The position numbers were made by a program, and so were the translations under genes. A DNA stretch of 48,422 nucleotides from Flavobacteriales bacterium (GTDB lineage: Bacteria; Bacteroidota; Bacteroidia; Flavobacteriales_D; Sanyastnellaceae). The notes beneath the pieces were generated by a model. That model ran no database searches. It was not told the DNA's origin and worked only from the letters and a program-made list of their open reading frames with translations. Positions 3,924 to 45,605 of this stretch are shown here, one piece after another (the stretch's first letter is position 1; every line of letters starts with the position of its first letter). The DNA lies in contig JAQWFN010000031.1 in assembly GCA_029238785.1 (NCBI GenBank), forward strand, positions 1 to 48,422, read 5' to 3'.

Positions 3924-4094
3924 AAGGCTTAAAGTTACGGCATAAGTCTTTTGGCGCGGCGACATAAATTGAGAACTACTACAATACCCATACTAAGACA
4001 GCATCAACAAGGTGCTTTTGGATGTGACCTTTGGAGTTAAGCAAAATTTTGATCTATCTTCTAGTTCAAGCGCTGCCCACTGACCGACCAAAAC

Positions 4095-4619
4095 TCAAGG
4101 AGCATAAATCGACTCCAACTGTTGAATTTTAGGTACCCTCACAAAAAACGACTTCCCTTCGTGGATGAATTCCAACATGCCCTGAAACTGCGGCAAGACG
4201 GTGTCGGTTTTCATGTATTGAACTTGGTCTAGATCCATTCCCGGAGCAGGTTGGTAGTAATTTCGAGAGGTGTAAGCGTCTAATTTTCCCTCTCCATTCA
4301 ATAAAAACTGAGCACCCGTCATGCGCTCATCATTCCATTGGGCGTAAGAAATGTTCAACTTCACTGAATCAACCCAGAGATAAGCCGGCGAAGTGTTGGC
4401 TTCAAACTTTCCTAACATCGAAACGGCATAAGTTCTGGTCTTCTTCAAATTTGAAAAAACACCCGGATAAGCATCTTGATAAGTAGCCAAGCGCACTTCA
4501 GTGTTGGTTACAGGAATAATTTGCTGCTTGCCCTGTGTTCCTTTGTGACCACAAGAGAAGGAAAATGTTACGAGAGTGACAAAAATCAGGAGAGATATCG
4601 GCGCTTTTGTACGTTTCAT
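4095..4619 (-). CDS. hypothetical lipoprotein
   Basis: 174 residues. The N terminus MKRTKAPISL is followed by a hydrophobic segment ending in SFSC, which reads as a lipoprotein signal peptide with the lipid-bearing cysteine at about residue 23. The mature part is polar, with no motif I recognise. The middle and end (VKLNISYAQWN, FIHEGKSFFVRVP) look like beta strands. A -7-like box TAACTTTC lies 4 bases upstream of the ATG, so the mRNA may be leaderless. The gene diverges from the FkbM methyltransferase. It is probably anchored in the inner or outer membrane; function unknown. Confidence 0.7.
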   Translation of the reverse strand: MKRTKAPISLLIFVTLVTFSFSCGHKGTQGKQQIIPVTNTEVRLATYQDAYPGVFSNLKKTRTYAVSMLGKFEANTSPAYLWVDSVKLNISYAQWNDERMTGAQFLLNGEGKLDAYTSRNYYQPAPGMDLDQVQYMKTDTVLPQFQGMLEFIHEGKSFFVRVPKIQQLESIYAP

Positions 4620-4623
4620 GAGC

Positions 4624-4631
4624 GAAAGTTA
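4624..4631 (-). promoter_or_regulatory. -7 box (TAACTTTC) of the lipoprotein gene
   Basis: One mismatch to the Bacteroidota -7 consensus TAnnTTTG. It ends 4 bases before the start codon at 4619. No clear -33 TTG was found. Confidence 0.45.
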
Positions 4632-4668
4632 GTTCCTTTTGGCGAATGTGCATATTTTTACCGCCCGC

Positions 4669-12725: not shown

Positions 12726-13562
12726 TTACAAATGATGTTCGAAAAGCGGCTCTATTGGTCGCTTTACCATTTTGCCCAAGTTCACTCCTCGTGCTTCGCA
12801 AGCTGCTTCGAGTTCTTCTTTAAAGATGATACCGATAGATCCCACCATGTTTAATCGGAGGGTTTTGTGCTGCGGATAACGGCAAACATAGTCGTCTAAA
12901 AATGAAGAAAAAGCTGCGTTTAAAACTTCTTGCACCTTTGAGTTTGATCGATGTTTAACTGCAAAAGTGGTGAGCTTGGCCATCCATCGGTTGGCCAAAC
13001 CTCCTTGGTAAACGCGGGCGATAATTTCATCGTGACTCATCCCCAAATCGGCAAATAAATCAGCGCTCAGGGTTGTTTTCCCTCCTTCCAACATGCACAA
13101 GCGCAGCAAGCGTTTTCCAATGTCTGCTCCACTGCCTTCATCGCCCAGAACATAGCCCAAAGAAGGCACATGATGTGTTATTTCGCCGTTCTCAAAGACA
13201 CAAGAATTAGCTCCTGTGCCCAAGATACCCACCATAGCGCTTTCGCGGCCAGCTGCGGCTAAACAAGCCCCTAATAAGTCGTGATGTACCTGAACCTCTC
13301 CAGTTGGAAAACACTGTCGAAACAAGTTTTTATACCTGTGAACACCCAAAGCACTGGACAAGCCAGACCCGTAAAAATAAACGCCCTTTATGGCAAGTGG
13401 ATCTTCAATTTGGAGAAGCAATTCTTTCAGCACTTCCACTACTTCATCGTCGCTAACGAAATAAGGATTCAATCCTTGGGTGCGAACCCTTTGTGCTGTT
13501 TTAAGTGATGTTCCAATGAGCCAATCTGTTTTGGTAGAACCACTGTCTGCTACAATAATCAT
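12726..13562 (-). CDS. BadF/BadG/BcrA-type ATPase, N-acetylglucosamine kinase-like
   Basis: 278 residues of the ASKHA sugar-kinase fold. The phosphate 1 motif is VADSGSTKTDW, phosphate 2 is GILGTGANSCV, and GYVLGDEGSGADIGKRLL is the typical GlcNAc-kinase signature. It probably phosphorylates an amino sugar recovered from the cell wall, but the substrate is inferred. The start at 13562 overlaps the dapF stop as ATGA, indicating coupling; a start at 13571 would extend further into dapF. The C terminus (KRPIEPLFEHHL) matches this short kinase subfamily. Confidence 0.88.
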   Translation of the reverse strand: MIIVADSGSTKTDWLIGTSLKTAQRVRTQGLNPYFVSDDEVVEVLKELLLQIEDPLAIKGVYFYGSGLSSALGVHRYKNLFRQCFPTGEVQVHHDLLGACLAAAGRESAMVGILGTGANSCVFENGEITHHVPSLGYVLGDEGSGADIGKRLLRLCMLEGGKTTLSADLFADLGMSHDEIIARVYQGGLANRWMAKLTTFAVKHRSNSKVQEVLNAAFSSFLDDYVCRYPQHKTLRLNMVGSIGIIFKEELEAACEARGVNLGKMVKRPIEPLFEHHL

Positions 13563-14365
13563 AATTCCCACTCCCCTCGAAAAACAAATTCTGCCGGACC
13601 TTCAAGAAAGATCTTGTCATAACCTTCATTCCCGGGTTCAAATTCTACTCGAAGTTGTCCGCCTTTTGTGTTGATGAGACGGAACCGCTCTCCTCCGTGC
13701 TCCTGGTAATCACTGATGGCAACCGCTGTAACACCTGTGCCACAGCTTAAGGTCTCTTCTTCCACGCCGCGCTCATAAGTTCGAACATAAAGCACATCAT
13801 TACTTCGTTGCACAAAGTTGACATTTACGCCTTCTTGACGAAATGCGGCACTGTATCTAATTTCATGCGCATCGCCATAGAGGTCGACACGATCTACATT
13901 TTCGCAATAAACAATGTAATGAGGAGATCCGGTATGTAAAAAGAAGTGCTTCGGTTCTGGTTTCAGACTGGCGGGGTTTTCAAGTTCTCTTTCCACCAAT
14001 TTGGGAACACCAGTTGGGCGCATTCCCATTTTGTAAGTGTCTTTTAATACCTGATAGGTATGAATACCATCGATGGCTTCGAAACTTCCTTCTGGTTTAG
14101 CTTTTTTAAGATGAAGGGCGAAGGCCAATGCGCAGCGACTCCCGTTACCGCAAAAAGATTGGCTCGCATCAGGATTGTAGAAAACCATGTTGTAATCGGC
14201 ATGTTTGCTTTCTTCCAAAAGAATCAAGCCATCAGAACCAATTCCAAAGCGACGATCACACATTAAAATAATGTCGTCTTCTGTTAATTTGATTGTTCCA
14301 TCGAAATTATCAATCAAGATAAAATCGTTTCCCGTACCGTGATATTTAAAGAAAGGAATGCTCAT
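13559..14365 (-). CDS. dapF: diaminopimelate epimerase
   Basis: Interconverts LL- and meso-diaminopimelate for lysine and peptidoglycan synthesis. The 268-residue protein (MSIPFFKYHGTGNDF) has both catalytic cysteines: Cys72 in SQSFCGNGSRC and Cys208 in TLSCGTGVTA. Other family motifs are RRFGIGSDGLI and GVNVNFV. Starts at 14374 (MRLMSIP) or the TTG at 14383 are possible, but 14383 lies inside the promoter box. It is the first gene of an eight-gene leftward run reaching 5382. A good Bacteroidota promoter lies directly upstream. Confidence 0.96.
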   Translation of the reverse strand: MSIPFFKYHGTGNDFILIDNFDGTIKLTEDDIILMCDRRFGIGSDGLILLEESKHADYNMVFYNPDASQSFCGNGSRCALAFALHLKKAKPEGSFEAIDGIHTYQVLKDTYKMGMRPTGVPKLVERELENPASLKPEPKHFFLHTGSPHYIVYCENVDRVDLYGDAHEIRYSAAFRQEGVNVNFVQRSNDVLYVRTYERGVEEETLSCGTGVTAVAISDYQEHGGERFRLINTKGGQLRVEFEPGNEGYDKIFLEGPAEFVFRGEWEL

Positions 14366-14380
14366 CAGCCTCATTTTAAG

Positions 14381-14409
14381 CAAATGTACATTTTTGAAGT
14401 AAGCTGCAA
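14381..14409 (-). promoter_or_regulatory. promoter of the dapF operon
   Basis: On the - strand TTG (14407-14409), an 18-base spacer and TACATTTG (14381-14388) match the Bacteroidota consensus TTG-N17-19-TAnnTTTG exactly. The expected transcription start is about 14375, next to the ATG at 14374 and ten bases before that at 14365. Confidence 0.75.
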
Positions 14410-18164: not shown

Positions 18165-18776
18165 TTAAGGTATTCCAATAAACTTGTGGGTTTGGAGAGA
18201 CAATCTCCAGCTTGGATTGTTGCGCACGTAATTCAAAATGAGCGGCAAGTTTTGTTCTTGCTTGTCCCACTCTGGTTGAAGAAAGCGCTGAGCCTCTTTG
18301 TTGAGTAAGTCTGCATGATTTTGCGCCCATACAATATCTGATTGATGGTAGACCACCACTTTCAGTTCATTGGCTTTTTCGTATGCCTCAGCCAAAGGCT
18401 TTTTGAACTTTTTTGGAGAGAAACAGACCCAATCCCAATCGCCAGTGATGGGATAAACTCCGCTTGTTTCAAGATGGGTTCTAATCCCTGCTTCGCGAAG
18501 AAGACTGGTTAATTCTAGGAGGTTGTACATGCAAGGTTCGCCCCCTGTAATCACAGCGATATTGGCTCCAGAATCAAGCACATCCTCAACAATGCTTTGT
18601 GCACTTTTACCCGGATGAGCACTGGCATCCCAACTTTCTTTCACATCACACCACACACAACCCACATCGCAACCACCCGTGCGAATGAAATAAGCTGGTG
18701 AACCGGTGAAAGCACCTTCCCCCTGAACAGTATAAAACTGCTCCATGATTGGAATTAAAGCTGTGGATTGTTCCAT
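18165..18776 (-). CDS. queE: 7-carboxy-7-deazaguanine synthase
   Basis: Radical SAM enzyme that converts 6-carboxytetrahydropterin to 7-carboxy-7-deazaguanine in queuosine biosynthesis. 203 residues with the QueE N terminus (MEQFYTVQGEGAFTGSPAYFIR), the 4Fe-4S ligands Cys36, Cys40, Cys43 (GGCDVGCVWCD) in the family C-X3-C-X2-C spacing, and ITGGEPCMY for SAM binding. The start is the ATG at 18776; the TTG at 18785 lies inside the promoter box. No other queuosine genes are nearby. Confidence 0.94.
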   Translation of the reverse strand: MEQSTALIPIMEQFYTVQGEGAFTGSPAYFIRTGGCDVGCVWCDVKESWDASAHPGKSAQSIVEDVLDSGANIAVITGGEPCMYNLLELTSLLREAGIRTHLETSGVYPITGDWDWVCFSPKKFKKPLAEAYEKANELKVVVYHQSDIVWAQNHADLLNKEAQRFLQPEWDKQEQNLPLILNYVRNNPSWRLSLQTHKFIGIP

Positions 18777-18782
18777 GAGCTG

Positions 18783-18812
18783 CAAAAGTACTATTCAGTT
18801 TGCAGTCTCGAA
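18783..18812 (-). promoter_or_regulatory. promoter of queE
   Basis: TACTTTTG (18783-18790) is an exact TAnnTTTG -7 box, with TTC 19 bases upstream (18810-18812) near the -33 position. The box ends 6 bases before the ATG, so the mRNA should be leaderless or nearly so. Confidence 0.65.
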
Positions 18813-35887: not shown

Positions 35888-37706
35888 GTACCAGCTCTAA
35901 CTTGAAGTTATTGTAGCGCAAAAGCACCGTGCTTTCATTTTCGAAACCCGACTCAATGCCCGTTTTGTAATAGTCCATTCCGATGTGCAATAGACCGTCT
36001 TGTTTCACCCTATCGAACTCATTTGGAAAGTTTAGACCAAACTGCAGGAGTGCTTGACCGTAGTACAGCATCACATCATATCCCAAATAGCCATAATCTC
36101 CAGGTTCCGTTTGGTATTTATTTCGGTAGTTTTTAAGAAGCGCCTTCACTTGCTCGTTTTCGTAGTCGATGTAAAGTGAAGTAGGCACACAAAGGTGAAT
36201 CTTGTTTTTAAAAGCGGTATCCAAAAAGTCGAAACTCATCCAGTCTTCCGTTCCAAAAACAACAACATCGTAGTCTTCTGCTTCGAGCAGTTGGAGTTTG
36301 GTTTGCAGGTTGGCAATCATAGAGCGGCTATCTTTCCCAGCGGGAACGACCAGCACATTTCGTCTGAATTTGCTCAATTTCCCTTTCAAGTCGCCTACAA
36401 ACTTTGAGGAGGCTGTGAACTCAATCAAACTGCGTTGCGCAGAATCTGCTTTGTTTTGGGTGTATTCTCCGTAGTACTTTTTAAACAACTGCACCTTGCG
36501 TGCATCTGACACGTCCATGCTGTTGATCAAGATCACATTGTCTTGGCTGTGGTTTTTCGCCACGTACTTCGCCATGGTCTTGATGTGAGAACTCTCCGAA
36601 CTTTTAACCTTTGATAAATTCGGGCTTGCAAGCAGGATGTTGTTTTTGCTGATGCTTGGACAAACGATGTGAATGCCTCTCTGGTTGGCGAACTTGGAAA
36701 CGCTCATCAAAGCACTTTTTTGAAGTGGCCCAATGATCAAATCGCTTCCAAGAAGTTCATTTCTTGAGAGGATGCGATCGACGTCTTCGTCGCTGCTCAC
36801 GTCGAAGACCTTCACCTTAAGGTTCGCTCCTCGTTTTTTAAGGCTATCTAAGGCCATCATTGAACCCCGGTAGAAGCTCATTCCAATTTCTTGAAGGCGC
36901 TTGCTTTTGGAGTCAAGTTCGATATCGCCTTTCAGCGACTCCAAATAAAAGGGCAAGAGTAAAGACACAACATACTCCTCTTTAATCATCACAGAATCTG
37001 GCAAGACCAGTTTGAAGTCCATTTTCGCTTCGCCCATAAAATCCTCTCGAACTTCGGGCAAACGAAGCTTTTGGCCAATGTCCAAGCCCAGTTCAGACCC
37101 CGGGTTCAAAGCAACGACCTCATCTACTCGGTGTCCGTATAATTTCGATATACTATAAAGCGTTTCTCCAGCTTGAACAATGTGCGTTTCGAGTGAATCT
37201 TCTGCCGTTTCTGGAAGTTCCAAGGCCACGCTTTCGATCTCAATTTGCTTCGGGATTTTCAACTCAATTCCTTCTTTTAAACCAAGTTCAATACCAGGGT
37301 TAAGCCCAAGCATGTCGTTCATGTCAACGTTGTACTCTTTGCTGATGCTGTAAAGTGTTTCTTTCCGTTGAACACGGTGAATCATGAAACCGTTTTCAAT
37401 TCTGATTGGGTTCTCCCAGCGGTCTTCATCGTAGCTTTGTGGCACTGGAATGTAGAGGGTTTGACCAATACTTAGTCCGTTTTCTACTCCCTTATTGTGT
37501 TTTTCAATAGCAGCTACATCAACTCCATAGAGTTTGGAGAGCGAATAGAGCGTGTGTCCGCTCGCTACTTGATGAACAAAAAATTCTTTTCCGTCTCGAA
37601 TTTCAATCACCCGGTCTTGAGCAAAGCTTAAGGCAGCGTAAAGCGTGAAGATCAATACGAGGAGGACTGATTTCGACAAGTAGTTGAGCGTATTTCTTTT
37701 TTTCAT
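35877..37706 (-). CDS. LysM protein fused to a periplasmic-binding-like domain
   Basis: About 609 residues. A signal peptide (about 1-30, ending LSFAQ) is followed by three LysM domains that bind peptidoglycan: SGHTLYSLSKLYGVD (first), KETLYSISKEYNVD (second) and GETLYSISKLYGHR (third), spaced about 65 residues apart within the first 220. The rest (about 250-605) is an ABC-type substrate-binding fold like Leu/Ile/Val-binding proteins (VSLLLPFYLE, LIGPLQKSALMSVSKFA, DYGYLGYDVMLYYGQALLQFG). It may sense or scaffold cell-wall processes; ligand unknown. The start at 37706 overlaps the guaA stop by one base (TAATG), so it is translated from the guaA mRNA. Confidence 0.85.
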   Translation of the reverse strand: MKKRNTLNYLSKSVLLVLIFTLYAALSFAQDRVIEIRDGKEFFVHQVASGHTLYSLSKLYGVDVAAIEKHNKGVENGLSIGQTLYIPVPQSYDEDRWENPIRIENGFMIHRVQRKETLYSISKEYNVDMNDMLGLNPGIELGLKEGIELKIPKQIEIESVALELPETAEDSLETHIVQAGETLYSISKLYGHRVDEVVALNPGSELGLDIGQKLRLPEVREDFMGEAKMDFKLVLPDSVMIKEEYVVSLLLPFYLESLKGDIELDSKSKRLQEIGMSFYRGSMMALDSLKKRGANLKVKVFDVSSDEDVDRILSRNELLGSDLIIGPLQKSALMSVSKFANQRGIHIVCPSISKNNILLASPNLSKVKSSESSHIKTMAKYVAKNHSQDNVILINSMDVSDARKVQLFKKYYGEYTQNKADSAQRSLIEFTASSKFVGDLKGKLSKFRRNVLVVPAGKDSRSMIANLQTKLQLLEAEDYDVVVFGTEDWMSFDFLDTAFKNKIHLCVPTSLYIDYENEQVKALLKNYRNKYQTEPGDYGYLGYDVMLYYGQALLQFGLNFPNEFDRVKQDGLLHIGMDYYKTGIESGFENESTVLLRYNNFKLELVHGG

Positions 37707-39235
37707 TATTCCCATTCAATGGTTGCCGGCGGTTTACTGCTGATATCATAAACAACACGATTAACGCCTTTTACACGATTGATGATTTCATTCGAAACTC
37801 GTGCCAAAAATTCATAGGGCAGGTGACACCAATCTGCGGTCATACCGTCCGTTGAACTTACCGCTCTTAAAGCAACAGCTTGTTCGTAGGTTCTTTCATC
37901 GCCCATAACACCAACGCTTTGTACCGGGAGCAATATTGCCCCAGCTTGCCAAACCTCATCATAAAGTCCGGCATTTTTCAAACCATTGATCCAAATATGA
38001 TCTACTTCTTGCAAGATACGCACCTTTTCTGGGGTGATATCGCCGAGAATCCTGATTCCAAGTCCTGGTCCCGGGAAAGGGTGTCGGCCTAAAATACTTT
38101 GTTTAATCCCCAAAGCTTTCCCTACTCGTCTCACTTCGTCTTTGAACAACAAGCGGAGCGGCTCAACCACTTCAAGTTTCATGTAATCTGGAAGTCCACC
38201 TACGTTGTGGTGGGATTTGATGGTTGCAGAAGGACCACCGCTAGCAGAAACTGATTCAATCACGTCTGGGTAAATTGTTCCTTGACCGAGCCACTTTGCG
38301 TCTGTAACCAGGTGCGACTCTTCATCGAACACCTCAATAAACACTCTTCCAATAGCTTTACGCTTGGTTTCAGGATCTTTTTCTCCCTTCAAAGCATCGT
38401 AGAAACGGTCGGCTGCACGCACCCCTTTAACGTTCAAGCCCATGTCTTTGTAGCTCTCGAGTACTTCTTCAAATTCGTTTTTACGTAGTAAACCGTTGTC
38501 TACAAAAATGCAGTGCAAGTGCTTGCCAATGGCTTGGTGTAAGAGCATGGCTGCTACAGAACTATCAACACCTCCAGACAATCCTAGGATAACTTTATCA
38601 TTACCTAACTTGGCTTTCAGTCCAGCTACGGTCTCTTCAACAAAAGACATTGGCGTCCAATCTTGCTTGCATCCTGCGATGTTCACCACAAAGTTTTTCA
38701 GCAATGTTGCTCCATCGGTGCTGTGATATACCTCAGGGTGAAATTGAATACCGAAAGTTGTTTCACCTTCAATGGCATACCCTGCGTATGTCACATCACC
38801 TGTGCTACAGATGGTTTTAAAATTGGAAGGCACTTTTTTGATGGTGTCTCCATGCGACATCCAAACTTGTGATCCCTCATTCACTCCTTCGAGCAAAGGG
38901 TGTTGATCAACAAAAGCAAGGTTGGCTCTACCGTATTCGCGAATTTCAGAGGGGAGCACCTCTCCTCCACTTGATTGGGCGAGGTATTGCGCACCGAAAC
39001 AAACACCTAAAAGTGGGAGTTTCCCGCGGTAGGCGCTCAAATCTGGTTTTGGTGCCTTTTCATCTCGCACAGAATGCGGACTACCAGAAAGGATAATGGC
39101 GCGCACGGAGTCGTCGATTTCTGGAGCTTTATTCCATGGATGGATTTCAGAGTAAACGTTTAGTTCACGGACTCTTCGGGCAATCAACTGCGTGTATTGC
39201 GAACCGAAGTCGAGGATAATGACCTTCTCTTGCAT
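37706..39235 (-). CDS. guaA: GMP synthase (glutamine-hydrolysing)
   Basis: Makes GMP from XMP, ATP and glutamine. 509 residues: an N-terminal class I glutamine amidotransferase with the triad Cys79 (LLGVCFGAQ), His166 and Glu168 (QFHPEV); the ATP-pyrophosphatase domain with the P-loop SGGVDSS (220-226); and the C-terminal dimerisation domain ending in [16 protein letters not shown], an invariant GuaA terminus. It is the first gene of an operon with the LysM protein and hemF. An exact -7 box lies only 4 bases before the ATG. Confidence 0.97.
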
Positions 39236-39239
39236 GCTG

Positions 39240-39247
39240 CAAAATTA
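39240..39247 (-). promoter_or_regulatory. -7 box (TAATTTTG) of guaA
   Basis: Exact TAnnTTTG match followed by CAGC and then the ATG at 39235. The expected transcription start falls at or beside the start codon, so the mRNA would be leaderless. Confidence 0.65.
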
Positions 39248-39318: not shown

Positions 39319-39326
39319 TTACTTTG
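39319..39326 (+). promoter_or_regulatory. -7-like box (TTACTTTG) of maf
   Basis: One mismatch to TAnnTTTG, 8 bases before the ATG at 39335. It supports that start over the GTG at 39296. Confidence 0.45.
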
Positions 39327-39334
39327 CAGCCACT

Positions 39335-39951: not shown

Positions 39952-39978
39952 AATACCTTTAAGGTGGTATTGGTTTTT
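39952..39978 (+). terminator. palindrome between maf and feoB, weak terminator or operator
   Basis: AATACC (39952-39957) pairs with GGTATT (39966-39971) and is followed by GG and five T. Its centre ACCTTTAAGGT is itself a palindrome. It could end maf transcription or be an operator for feoB. Confidence 0.35.
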
Positions 39979-40022
39979 GACGAATTAGGAACGAATTTCG
40001 CTGTCTAATTTAGCCCCCGATA

Positions 40023-42122
40023 ATGCTCAAAATAGCCCTAGTAGGAAATCCGAATTGCGGTAAGACGTCACTTTTCAACGTGCTTACAGGACTAAAGCAA
40101 AAAGTGGGCAATTTCGCTGGGGTTACTGTAGATAAAAAGTTGGGTTACTTCTCCTTGCCCTCGGGTGATAAAGTTCAGCTTACCGATCTTCCAGGAGCTT
40201 ACAGTTTGTATCCCAAATCACTTGATGAGCAAGTCGTTCACGATGCTTTGTTGAACAAGGCTTCTCTTGAATCGCCTGAACTTGTAATCTTGGTTTTGGA
40301 TGCCTCTAACTTGAAGCGCAACCTCTTTCTAGCCTCTCAAGTGATTGATCTTGGTTTGCCGGCGATTTGTGTTTTGAACATGACCGATTTGGCAGAAGAT
40401 AAAGGCTTTCAAATTGATCTTGATGGACTCTCAGAAGCAATAGGCATTCCCGTGGTGACACTCAACGCCGCTACAGGAAAAGGAGTACAAGGTTTAAAGC
40501 AGGCCATTTCAGAAGGCAGGTATACGTCTGGTAAAAGCACCATCGACTTTAGTGCTTGGTTGGATGAAAGCGAAGCGAATACCCTTCCTGAGCTTCAAAA
40601 CTATTCTCGTTTTCATGCGCTCGCTTCTTTGCCTTTACAAACTTGGATGAGCGAAAATGACAAATCGCTTTTGCAAGATGAATTTGCCCTTAAAGGGAAA
40701 AGTGAGAGTGAATGGCAGTTGTGGGAAATTAGTGAGCGTTATGTGTGGATCAATCAGGTTCACAAGTCTTTTGTGCACCGACCAGGAAGAAGCGAGAAAA
40801 GTGCTTTGATGACCAAACGTTTAGACAAAGTACTCACCCACAAAGTGTGGGGAACGCTCTTCTTTCTTGGGGTGTTTTTCTTGTTGTTTCAAGCTGTATT
40901 TACCGTTGCCGCCTACCCCATGGAGTGGATTGATGCCGGAATGGCTTGGCTGATAGAAAGCGTTGGAGCCGCTTTGCCTTCAGGTTTATTGAACAGCTTT
41001 ATTACCGATGGCATCTTAGCCGGATTAGCAGGTGTGGTGATTTTCATTCCTCAGATCATGATTCTTTTTGGCTTGATTACCGCTTTGGAAGACAGTGGTT
41101 ACATGACGCGCGTGAGCTTCATTAACGACCGATTATTGAGCAAAGTAGGTTTGAACGGAAAAAGCATTGTTCCTTTGGTTGGTGGATTTGCCTGTGCTGT
41201 TCCTGCTGTTATGGCTGCACGAAGCATTGAGAATGTGAAAGAGCGTTTGCTCACCATCTTCATCACCCCCTTGATGAGCTGCTCTGCTCGCTTGCCCGTT
41301 TATGTTTTCTTGGTGGCTTTTATTGTTCCGAATGAGCGCCTTTTTGGATTGATTAACCTTCAGGGTTTATTCATGTTGGGCTTGTATTTATTGGGGATTG
41401 TGATGTCTGGAATGGTGGCTTGGGTGATGAATAAGTTCATCCAGCAAAATCAGCGTTCAACCTTCGTAATGGAGCTGCCTTTGTTCAAAAAACCAAGTTT
41501 TAAAAACATTGCAAGCAGCATGTGGGCGAAGGGGAGAACATTCGTTACCGAAGCAGGTAAAGTGATTATGGTGGTATCGATGATCCTTTGGGTATTGAGT
41601 AGTTTTGGTCCGGGCGACACCTTTGAGAACATCGAGAAAAAATATCAAGACAGCGCTTATGTGGATGGATTGAGTCAAGAAGAAATTACAGTTCAAGTAA
41701 ACAGCGAAAAATTGCGTGAGAGCTATGCTGGACAAATGGGTCGCTTAATTGAACCCGCAATTGAACCACTTGGTTTTGATTGGAAAATTGGTATCGCCTT
41801 GATTACATCATTTGCGGCACGAGAGGTGTTTGTTGGCACCATGAGCACCATCTATAGTGTAGAAGGAGATGAAGCCCACAGCATTAAAGAGTTGCAGGAT
41901 AAACTCATGAACAAAATCGACCCGAATACGGGAAAGGCTGTTTTCTCGAGGGCTACAGCTTTAAGTTTGGTGATCTTTTATGTCTTCGCCATGCAATGCA
42001 TGAGCACTGTGGCCATTGTAAAGAAAGAAACCGGTGGTTGGAAATGGGCCTTAGCGCAATTGGTATTTCTAACTGTTTTGGCTTATGTGGCCAGTTTAAT
42101 CACCTACCAAATCTTCGCTTAA
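40023..42122 (+). CDS. feoB: ferrous iron transporter FeoB
   Basis: Inner-membrane Fe(II) transporter, 699 residues. The N-terminal G domain has G1 GNPNCGKT (8-15), G2 Thr in FAGVTVDKK, G3 DLPGAYSLYP and G4 NMTD. It is followed by the helical GDI-like spacer (about 165-270) and the membrane region with two Gate modules (about 280-690): GFACAVPAVMAARS with TPLMSCSARLPVY, and ITSFAAREVFVGTMSTIYS with its partner near the C terminus. A -7-like box TAATTTAG (40006-40013) lies 9 bases before the ATG. The feoA partner is not upstream; it is convergent, with 3' ends overlapping by 4 bases. Confidence 0.96.
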   Translation: MLKIALVGNPNCGKTSLFNVLTGLKQKVGNFAGVTVDKKLGYFSLPSGDKVQLTDLPGAYSLYPKSLDEQVVHDALLNKASLESPELVILVLDASNLKRNLFLASQVIDLGLPAICVLNMTDLAEDKGFQIDLDGLSEAIGIPVVTLNAATGKGVQGLKQAISEGRYTSGKSTIDFSAWLDESEANTLPELQNYSRFHALASLPLQTWMSENDKSLLQDEFALKGKSESEWQLWEISERYVWINQVHKSFVHRPGRSEKSALMTKRLDKVLTHKVWGTLFFLGVFFLLFQAVFTVAAYPMEWIDAGMAWLIESVGAALPSGLLNSFITDGILAGLAGVVIFIPQIMILFGLITALEDSGYMTRVSFINDRLLSKVGLNGKSIVPLVGGFACAVPAVMAARSIENVKERLLTIFITPLMSCSARLPVYVFLVAFIVPNERLFGLINLQGLFMLGLYLLGIVMSGMVAWVMNKFIQQNQRSTFVMELPLFKKPSFKNIASSMWAKGRTFVTEAGKVIMVVSMILWVLSSFGPGDTFENIEKKYQDSAYVDGLSQEEITVQVNSEKLRESYAGQMGRLIEPAIEPLGFDWKIGIALITSFAAREVFVGTMSTIYSVEGDEAHSIKELQDKLMNKIDPNTGKAVFSRATALSLVIFYVFAMQCMSTVAIVKKETGGWKWALAQLVFLTVLAYVASLITYQIFA

Positions 42123-42376
42123 ACCTTTGCTTGGAGTTCAGGAAGAAGTCTTACCATAATGTGCTTCGCATCACGCTTGCGCAAACTTAGTTTGTAGCCA
42201 GAAAGCGTAATGGCAATAGGGTCGCCAAGCGGGGCGATGTGATCTAAGCGAAGTTCTTCACCAGGAAGACAGCCCATCTCCATCAATTTTGTCACCTTTT
42301 CAGGGTGATTCACTTCTGCAATGATACCGCGTTCTCCAGGTACTAATTCAGACAAGGCTTTGATTTTAGCTTCCAT
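42119..42376 (-). CDS. feoA: FeoA domain protein
   Basis: 85 residues with the SH3-like FeoA fold: LSELVPGERGIIAEVN, a KLMEMGCLPGEELRLDHIAPLGDPIAITLSG-like core and LSLRKRDAKHIMV. It is thought to assist FeoB at the cytoplasmic face. Here it runs opposite to feoB with a 4-base overlap of the stops, instead of the usual feoAB order, so the two have separate promoters. An exact -7 box sits 4 bases upstream of the ATG. Confidence 0.93.
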   Translation of the reverse strand: MEAKIKALSELVPGERGIIAEVNHPEKVTKLMEMGCLPGEELRLDHIAPLGDPIAITLSGYKLSLRKRDAKHIMVRLLPELQAKV

Positions 42377-42380
42377 GCGT

Positions 42381-42388
42381 CAAAGGTA
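42381..42388 (-). promoter_or_regulatory. -7 box (TACCTTTG) of feoA
   Basis: Exact TAnnTTTG match followed by ACGC and then the ATG at 42376, predicting a leaderless mRNA. No clear -33 TTG is seen. Confidence 0.6.
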
Positions 42389-42442
42389 GTTCGGAAATGT
42401 TTCCCTCATCATCCCCTTTTCAAGGTATTTTGCGTTTTCCCT

Positions 42443-44099: not shown

Positions 44100-45593
44100 T
44101 CATTTTACCTTATATACTGCGAGCTCCGTATTTGCGTGAAGGAGTTCAAGTTCCTGATGCCAATTGGCGAGGTCTTTTCCTAGGGTTACAACAAAGCCCA
44201 AGTCTTTGCTTTTGTATTCGTTCAGCTCTTTCGCATCAAGGTCAAAGTTCATGCTTGTCCAGCCCTTTCTTTTCAGGGTGAGTAGCGCTCCATTTGGACT
44301 GCGATCGCCAATAATTAAGAGACGAGCATCCTTATGGATACCTAAGTCATCGAGGTAAGGCAACAAGTGTTTAGCTTGTTTTGATGAAATGGCATAGTAT
44401 TCATCTTCGTGTGAAAAGCGTTGCGCTAGTTTTGTGTGTGCATAGTTGATACTCAGAACGCTTATTGCAGCAAGTGCTATGGGTAAAACCATTTTCCATT
44501 TCTTGCTTGAAAGGGCTTCGCGAAGCAAAAAAACCGACCCGAGGACCAAGAAGAACAAAGCCGGAAGTAGGTTTAAAATGTAATAGTCGTGATCTTTGAA
44601 CTGCACATAAAACAAGGCAAAGTAAGACAAGGAGCCCAGTACCATTAAGATCAAAAGTGGCGCTATTTTTCCTGGTATCTTTTTGATCAAGGCCAAGGCA
44701 ATCAGCAGTAGCGCCATGAATACGTGCCAAGTGCTCATGTAATAATATTCGGCTCTCCAAAACCCCGTAATGTAGCCCCAAACCTCTCCTATTCCGGCTG
44801 AATTTAGCGACCATATGGGCAAGGCAGAGGTCAAGAAATACTCATCGTGGTGCACGGTGTTGTAATCAATCATAAAGCTATTCCACATCAGGATGGCCAT
44901 CAAGCAGAAAAAAAACAAGCCCAGGATACCCGCATAATTTCTAAAGAACAGCTTCAAATCGCTTCGATGCGTGAAGAGGAGAAAACCTGCGATGGCTAGA
45001 GGATGAATGAAGAAGGTAACTTTCAGTAGCGCTGCTAAACCGAAGAAACTCATCGAGCAATACAAGCTCTTTTTAGTTTGGTTTACCCAGTATTTTGCAA
45101 AGGAATGCCATCCAAGGAGCGTTAGGGCAAAAGCACTAGAGTCTGGCAGAAAGTTGGCCGAATAATAAAGCAGAACCGTTGACGAAATCAGCCAAAACCC
45201 AAGAATGAGGGTGTATACTTGGTTTTTAAAAATAAGGTAGATGGTTTTAAAGAAGGCCACAAAACCGGATGTCATGAGCAATAGGCTTATTGTACGAAGC
45301 ACTGCAGGATGTTCACCTGTAGTTTGATAAATCAAGGCTGTAAGGTAATAGAGCAGTGGAAATTCACAGGCGGCTTTGGCATCATCACTTTGCAGGTTAA
45401 AGAGTCCGGGCGAAAAGAAATCCATCCCAAAATGGTAGTAGTGACTAGCGAAGGAGAGGCTATCTGTTTGCCTTACAAAGTGCAATCCAAAGGGCTCAAG
45501 TAAAAGAACAGAAAAAACACCCATGATCGCATAAAAGCAAAGTATGAGTGTTAAGTACAGTAAACTTGAGCTGCCTTGAACAAAGGATTTCAT
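44100..45593 (-). CDS. GT-C fold glycosyltransferase-like membrane protein
   Basis: 497 residues with about 11 to 12 membrane segments and a soluble C-terminal part (about 400-497). The first periplasmic loop contains FVRQTDSLSFASHYY, where Asp44 would be the catalytic acidic residue of a GT39/ArnT/PMT-like enzyme. Such enzymes transfer a sugar from a polyprenyl phosphate donor to lipid, glycan or protein. The end LLIIGDRSPNGALLTLKRKGW is a Rossmann-like strand-loop typical of this group. It stands alone on its strand between the kinase and the araC remnant, with its own -7-like box 4 bases upstream. Confidence 0.8.
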   Translation of the reverse strand: MKSFVQGSSSLLYLTLILCFYAIMGVFSVLLLEPFGLHFVRQTDSLSFASHYYHFGMDFFSPGLFNLQSDDAKAACEFPLLYYLTALIYQTTGEHPAVLRTISLLLMTSGFVAFFKTIYLIFKNQVYTLILGFWLISSTVLLYYSANFLPDSSAFALTLLGWHSFAKYWVNQTKKSLYCSMSFFGLAALLKVTFFIHPLAIAGFLLFTHRSDLKLFFRNYAGILGLFFFCLMAILMWNSFMIDYNTVHHDEYFLTSALPIWSLNSAGIGEVWGYITGFWRAEYYYMSTWHVFMALLLIALALIKKIPGKIAPLLILMVLGSLSYFALFYVQFKDHDYYILNLLPALFFLVLGSVFLLREALSSKKWKMVLPIALAAISVLSINYAHTKLAQRFSHEDEYYAISSKQAKHLLPYLDDLGIHKDARLLIIGDRSPNGALLTLKRKGWTSMNFDLDAKELNEYKSKDLGFVVTLGKDLANWHQELELLHANTELAVYKVK

Positions 45594-45597
45594 GCTG

Positions 45598-45605
45598 TAA
45601 AGTTA
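45598..45605 (-). promoter_or_regulatory. -7-like box (TAACTTTA) of the glycosyltransferase
   Basis: One mismatch to TAnnTTTG, followed by CAGC and the ATG at 45593; the CAGC-ATG arrangement is the same as at guaA. Confidence 0.45.

Follow-up and report, generated by a model that had tools for sequence, protein, structure and literature searches.

Does a promoter box that ends four bases before a start codon mean that the mRNA begins with that codon? The question is raised by guaA in a Flavobacteriales bacterium (assembly GCA_029238785.1, contig JAQWFN010000031.1, positions 1 to 48,422; this whole stretch of 48,422 nucleotides is called the window). The minus strand at 39236-39247 reads TAATTTTG-CAGC-ATG, the ATG of guaA lying at 39235.

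39240..39247, minus strand: -7 box TAATTTTG of guaA, exact match, gap 4 (CAGC).
37706..39235, minus strand: guaA, GMP synthase; Pfam GATase (residues 7-185) and GMP_synt_C, N-terminus aligned with relatives.

In F. johnsoniae the -7 box spans -12 to -5, and probable promoters are those with 4-5 nt from the box to the start inferred from RNA-seq (PMC6847099); in F. psychrophilum the box is likewise reported at -12 to -5 (PMC9723704). Because of this published spacing, a gap of 4 or 5 bases between box and ATG puts +1 on the A of AUG. The 5' end of the guaA mRNA is accordingly predicted at the ATG at 39235, and we consider it very probable that in a whole class of genes the -7 box of a primary promoter is placed so that the mRNAs are leaderless, with translation beginning on the first AUG.

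The original prediction had named nine genes in the window with the box TAnnTTTG 4-9 bases before the ATG, and all nine gaps were correct on re-reading. The box matches exactly in three of the nine (guaA, feoA and the gene called "queE") and carries one mismatch in the other six. Similarly, among four genes said to share a box, four bases and ATG, two have exact boxes and two only near boxes. One exact box, that of dapF, had been overlooked.

42381..42388, minus strand: -7 box TACCTTTG of feoA, exact match, gap 4 (ACGC).
42119..42376, minus strand: feoA, Pfam FeoA from residue 7; leaderless by prediction.
18783..18790, minus strand: -7 box TACTTTTG of a radical-SAM gene, exact match, gap 6.
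18165-18776, minus strand: that gene, Pfam Radical_SAM; queE is the name given in the original prediction only.
14381..14388, minus strand: -7 box TACATTTG of dapF, exact match, gap 6.
13559-14374, minus strand: dapF, Pfam DAP_epimerase.
45598..45605, minus strand: near box TAACTTTA of a glycosyltransferase gene (44100-45593), one mismatch, gap 4 (CAGC).
4624..4631, minus strand: near box TAACTTTC of gene 4095-4619, originally called a lipoprotein, one mismatch, gap 4.
3930..3937, minus strand: near box TAACTTTA of a CotH-domain gene (ATG 3923; Pfam CotH), one mismatch, gap 6; choice of start codon uncertain.
39319..39326, plus strand: near box TTACTTTG of maf (ATG 39335), one mismatch, gap 8.
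4653..4660, plus strand: near box TATTTTTA of an FkbM methyltransferase gene (ATG 4669; Pfam Methyltransf_21), one mismatch, gap 8; doubtful.
40006..40013, plus strand: near box TAATTTAG of feoB, one mismatch, gap 9.

A search of gene 4095-4619 gave zero Pfam matches. The starts of "queE" and dapF are less sure than that of guaA, because a later in-frame Met exists in both. In the window, four exact boxes lie at gap 3-6 before the ATG of an ORF, against 0.03 expected, and none at 14-40.

The distances between box and start codon were counted in a sample of 808,383 bases (26%) of the genome to which the window belongs (3,111,384 bases in 132 contigs), which held 638 exact boxes. Each exact box was paired with the nearest following ATG that starts an ORF of at least 80 aa (40 where the end of a stretch cuts it) and has an in-frame stop at most 30 codons upstream, and the chance expectation was taken from 29 other arrangements of the box letters. 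This count, proposed with the original prediction as its check, gave 39 exact boxes at gap 3-6 where 1.6 were expected, and no permuted box among the 29 exceeded 4. From gap 3 to gap 10 the counts were 1, 23, 8, 7, 1, 1, 4 and 2, and at gaps 11, 12 and 13 they were 0, 0 and 0; gap 4 alone had 23 against 0.41 expected, and gaps 4-5 held 31 of the 39 short-gap cases. Wider ranges gave 8 observed and 3.1 expected at gap 7-13, 56 and 14.3 at gap 14-40, and 21 and 14.6 at gap 41-79. The claim that short gaps form a distinct class is borne out by this distribution, with its sharp peak at 4-6, the empty gaps 11-13 and a second, broad class at 14-40. The short-gap excess was robust to ORF cut-offs from 60 to 200 aa, to the use of TAHHTTTG and to leaving out the window (share 0.36-0.43). 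G is avoided in the two middle positions of the box, TAHHTTTG retaining 37 of the 39 short-gap cases while the number of boxes falls from 638 to 429. A -33 TTG, starting 19-21 before the box, was weak in both classes (8/38 leaderless, 3/56 leadered genes), and in F. johnsoniae this element is said to be difficult to detect (PMC6847099).

These counts bear on one alternative, that a box beside an ATG reflects chance or base composition and transcription comes from further upstream. With 34 copies where 40 are expected, TAnnTTTG shows no general excess in the window, and six of the nine originally listed boxes are one-mismatch forms, as such an account would have it; permuted boxes, however, give 1.6 where 39 were observed, which refutes chance as a general account and leaves it extremely improbable.

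The range of gaps in the original prediction has to be narrowed. Its core, 4-6, is a sharper peak than was claimed, and the cases at gaps 8-9 (maf, FkbM and feoB) do not clearly belong to the class; they carry little weight, because one-mismatch boxes are less enriched than exact ones. In the genome sample there were 26 one-mismatch boxes at gap 4, 20 at gap 8 and about 10 at each of the other gaps; the 20 at gap 8 may be a chance maximum over 40 gaps or mark a second class. At gap 4, TAnnTTTA was found 5 times, against 1.2 per gap at 11-39, and TAnnTTTC 3 times, against 0.5 per gap over the same range. Two of the six one-mismatch boxes in the window, both at gap 4 (glycosyltransferase and gene 4095-4619), are credible.

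The maf box was rejected as a main TAnnTTTG box. Read as TACTTTGC (39320-39327) it fits TAnnTTGC at gap 7, and maf in a genome of the same genus (G162, locus L254) has TACCTTGC, again TAnnTTGC at gap 7. This form resembles motif SM5 (TAnnTTGY) of F. psychrophilum, which has been ascribed to an alternative sigma factor (PMC9723704). The feoB near box is probably not a promoter box; the same-genus genome G162 reads CAATCTGC at its position and does not keep the box. Separately, an inverted repeat of the form ATACCTTT-AAGGTAT lies upstream of feoB (39952-39971), with an imperfect copy at 42411-42429 (feoA), and the same form stands upstream of feoA in several genomes of the family (L142, L152, L155, L158-L160 and L162). 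It resembles an operator for a metal-dependent repressor.

A further reading takes UAnnUUUG before the AUG as an element of the mRNA, with a longer leader on which the ribosome or protein S1 recognises it, and with no promoter involved. The nearness of the box to the start codon would suit it, and it has been proposed that S1 binds AT-rich signals in Bacteroidetes (PMC5397173, PMC3160421). Yet the same letters are enriched 14-40 bases from other starts, where a promoter box is expected, gaps 11-13 are empty, and gap 4 equals the published distance from box to transcription start (PMC6847099). On this distribution of gaps we rejected a box read by the ribosome and regard it as very unlikely.

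The short-gap excess also requires a long ORF after the box. ATGs of ORFs shorter than 40 aa showed no excess (29 over gaps 3-6, 12 of them at gap 4, and 8.0 per gap elsewhere). Start codons of long ORFs at gap 3-6 were ATG in 41 cases, GTG in 4, TTG in 3 and CTG in 2; three of the four GTG cases are at gap 4, against 0.39 per gap elsewhere, which leaves room for some GTG starts. If the promoters were real but the true start codons lay downstream, the leaders would be short and ordinary. Start codons were picked by rule rather than by proteomics, and another in-frame Met follows shortly after the called start in dapF, panD and the queE-like gene. For guaA, carA and mnmA, on the other hand, a later start is impossible, because the stretch from the called start to the conserved domain contains no Met, and the excess sits on the ATG of long ORFs. 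Wrong starts were therefore rejected as a general account, with guaA, carA and mnmA fixed, and we judge them highly improbable.

The bases next to the ATG also set the class apart. In this genome, leadered genes are rich in A from -14 to -3; since the box occupies -12 to -5 in gap-4 genes, the comparison is confined to -4 to -1. A at -4 occurs in 13% of gap-4 genes (n=23) versus 45% of leadered genes (n=56), A at -3 in 30% versus 50%, and C at -1 in 61% (14/23) versus 34%. Among the guaA cluster representatives with gap 4 described below (n=45), C stands at -1 in 31 and at -4 in 35, so that CAGC is one form of a loose pattern. The A-rich stretch of the leadered class resembles the Kozak-like pattern of F. 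johnsoniae; the Kozak-like initiation described for leadered genes of Bacteroidota does without Shine-Dalgarno sequences (PMC6847099). That route needs a leader, whereas the gap-4 class has four bases between box and ATG and is A-poor and C-rich.

Conservation was examined gene by gene, using the ATG nearest the query's own start; loci without such an ATG were dropped (mnmA 4/30, feoA 3/30, ffh 1/30, guaA and carA 0). For each gene the family set comprised the 30 best-matching loci among 41 genomes (61 for feoA), the own genome being one of them, and the weakest matches therefore fall outside. In the best 80 of 592 confirmed named guaA loci, mostly Flavobacteriales MAGs for that reason and overlapping the family set, an exact box at gap 3-6 was present in 67, with one mismatch in 2 more; the nearest of these 80 are MAGs filed as Flavobacteriales and Crocinitomicaceae, at no more than 80% identity. 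Some record names look wrong (Chitinophaga, Saccharospirillaceae). Within the family, 20 of 30 guaA loci had an exact box at gap 3-6, 5 more a one-mismatch box, and three an exact box at 17-19 instead. When the two sets (110 loci) were pooled and clustered by the DNA above the box, 67 of the 85 resulting clusters were headed by a locus with an exact box at gap 3-6. The box and its distance are thus kept while the remaining upstream DNA is not, a result that also stands against chance. Beyond the family, Brumimicrobium has gap 4 and three Rufibacter have gap 3; 13 of the best 80 of 592 named loci, Labilibaculum among them, have no exact box at gap 3-6.

For mnmA, 20 of 26 family loci had an exact box at gap 3-6 and 3 more a near one. 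The picture was mixed for carA (14/30 exact, 2 more near) and feoA (7/27 exact, 7 more with one mismatch). The leadered control ffh had 0/29 at gap 3-6 and an exact box at 12-59 in 21/29. Measured against this control, leaderlessness would therefore belong to the individual gene and persist in much of the family, in the case of guaA also outside it. No functional theme was found in the 39 short-gap genes, which include metabolic enzymes, tRNA modification, transport and secreted proteins. A homologue of SUI1/YciH-family initiation factors (Pfam SUI1; L008:4652-4999, minus strand) is itself predicted to be leaderless, at gap 4.

Direct observations are the geometry of box and start codon, found more often than chance predicts, its need for ATG and a long ORF, and its conservation in particular genes. 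The leaderless reading offered originally gains support from the agreement with the published 4-5 nt spacing, from the need for a long ORF and from conservation per gene. From the sequence we infer the 5' end of the mRNA at the AUG and the route of translation. The promoters would be primary Bacteroidota promoters of the sigma-ABfr type, with the -7 box TAnnTTTG at -12 to -5, and transcription would start either at the A of the ATG or at most two bases upstream of it, giving a leaderless mRNA. Translation would then follow the general leaderless route, starting at the 5'-terminal AUG with a 70S ribosome or with a 30S subunit and initiator tRNA. Leaderless mRNAs are translated without leader contacts (the 70S route), and their translation is kasugamycin-tolerant. 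Such a route would suit Bacteroidota, because their ribosomes do not use Shine-Dalgarno pairing; Bacteroidetes ribosomes have been reported to conceal the anti-Shine-Dalgarno sequence (PMC10783764).

We expressed the leaderless share as a fraction of exact-box promoters with leaders below 80, background removed, counting exact boxes, ATG starts and ORFs of at least 80 aa (40 where cut by the end of a stretch) only. In the whole sample of the own genome the share was 0.41 (bootstrap 0.31-0.53), the stretches coming from contigs hit in other searches, a choice that could bias the count towards short gaps. Leaving out the window, contigs of at least 40 kb gave 0.37 (0.23-0.50); smaller contigs gave 0.40 (0.21-0.58). 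Independent of the choice of contigs, TAHHTTTG-N-ATG occurs in the whole genome 187 times with N of 4-6, 89 times with 11-13 and 99 times with 22-24. The share was 0.24 (0.11-0.36) in G158, of the same family, and 0.35 (0.21-0.50) in G115, and the class was almost absent from G017 (0.07, 0.01-0.14) and G021 (0.02, 0.00-0.08); a 100 kb sample of G029 (4 at gap 3-6, 3 at 14-40) was too small for a share. By Fisher's test the own genome differed from G017 (p 1e-6) and G021 (p 2e-5), and not from G115 (p 1.0) or G158 (p 0.25).

A survey of 148 sampled genomes across the phylum with TAHHTTTG, all rows transcribed by hand, found more boxes at gap 4-6 than at 11-13 in all 37 genomes of the own class, 20 of them at p < 0.01, and in 81 of the 111 other genomes, 11 of them at p < 0.01. 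Eight of those 11 are all the sampled members of one family (f22: G027, G059, G086, G101, G105, G113, G136 and G144), which has the strongest excess outside the own class (484 versus 120). The excess at 4-6 versus that at 22-24 was 98 versus 10 in the own genome, 104 versus 15 in a same-family genome and 105 versus 4 in a same-order genome; in family f6 the two were mostly similar, or that at 22-24 was larger.

The leaderless class itself is not new, since leaderless or near-leaderless mRNAs with the same box have been reported in Bacteroidota at 4-13%. In F. psychrophilum 5.5% of 890 genes are given as leaderless (PMC9723704), leaders of at most 10 nt make up 13% in F. johnsoniae (PMC6847099), and about 3.7% of leaders are below 10 nt in Bacteroides thetaiotaomicron (PMC7366714). 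These three species belong to the same phylum, have the same -7 box TAnnTTTG and show near-zero leaders; the share here (0.37-0.41) exceeds the 4-13% of their maps, although a sequence-based share is not the same measure as a map of transcription starts. A further difference is that the genes tested here keep their layout across relatives. Leaderless genes average 19% and 39% in Actinobacteria and Deinococcus-Thermus (PMC3160421), where a box, TANNNT, likewise places +1 at the start codon. In the same study (Zheng 2011), which took a Pribnow box as its reference and whose authors note that other boxes could escape it, one of 37 Bacteroidetes/Chlorobi genomes had leaderless genes. For Bacteroidetes, base frequencies led Nakagawa 2017 to suspect leaderless mRNAs or S1 sites (PMC5397173). 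Among the matches listed for open-licence PMC papers, titles and the beginnings of abstracts named neither conserved leaderless genes nor a leaderless-rich lineage in Bacteroidota, and by title and abstract none of those on guaA and leaderless mRNAs concerned Bacteroidota.

What would be new, on the DNA evidence, is how common the class is in this lineage and that a set of genes conserves it. Tentatively, and with clearly less than even confidence, we suggest that parts of the Bacteroidia have moved at least a third of their primary promoters to leaderless positions, with a gene set held by selection: guaA, mnmA, carA, feoA and perhaps others of the 39 short-gap genes, such as pyrD, queA and dapF.

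From the published maps, covering three species, leaderless mRNAs seemed a marginal feature of Bacteroidota; the sequences point to a dependence on lineage. The named genes, guaA first, allow a direct test of leaderless initiation in a cultured relative such as Brumimicrobium. Moreover, the position of the box marks the start and would help start-codon prediction. If a third or more of the promoters have indeed moved, leaderless initiation would form a second regular route alongside the A-rich leadered one and might have a control of its own, for example by the initiating nucleotide at nucleotide-synthesis genes.
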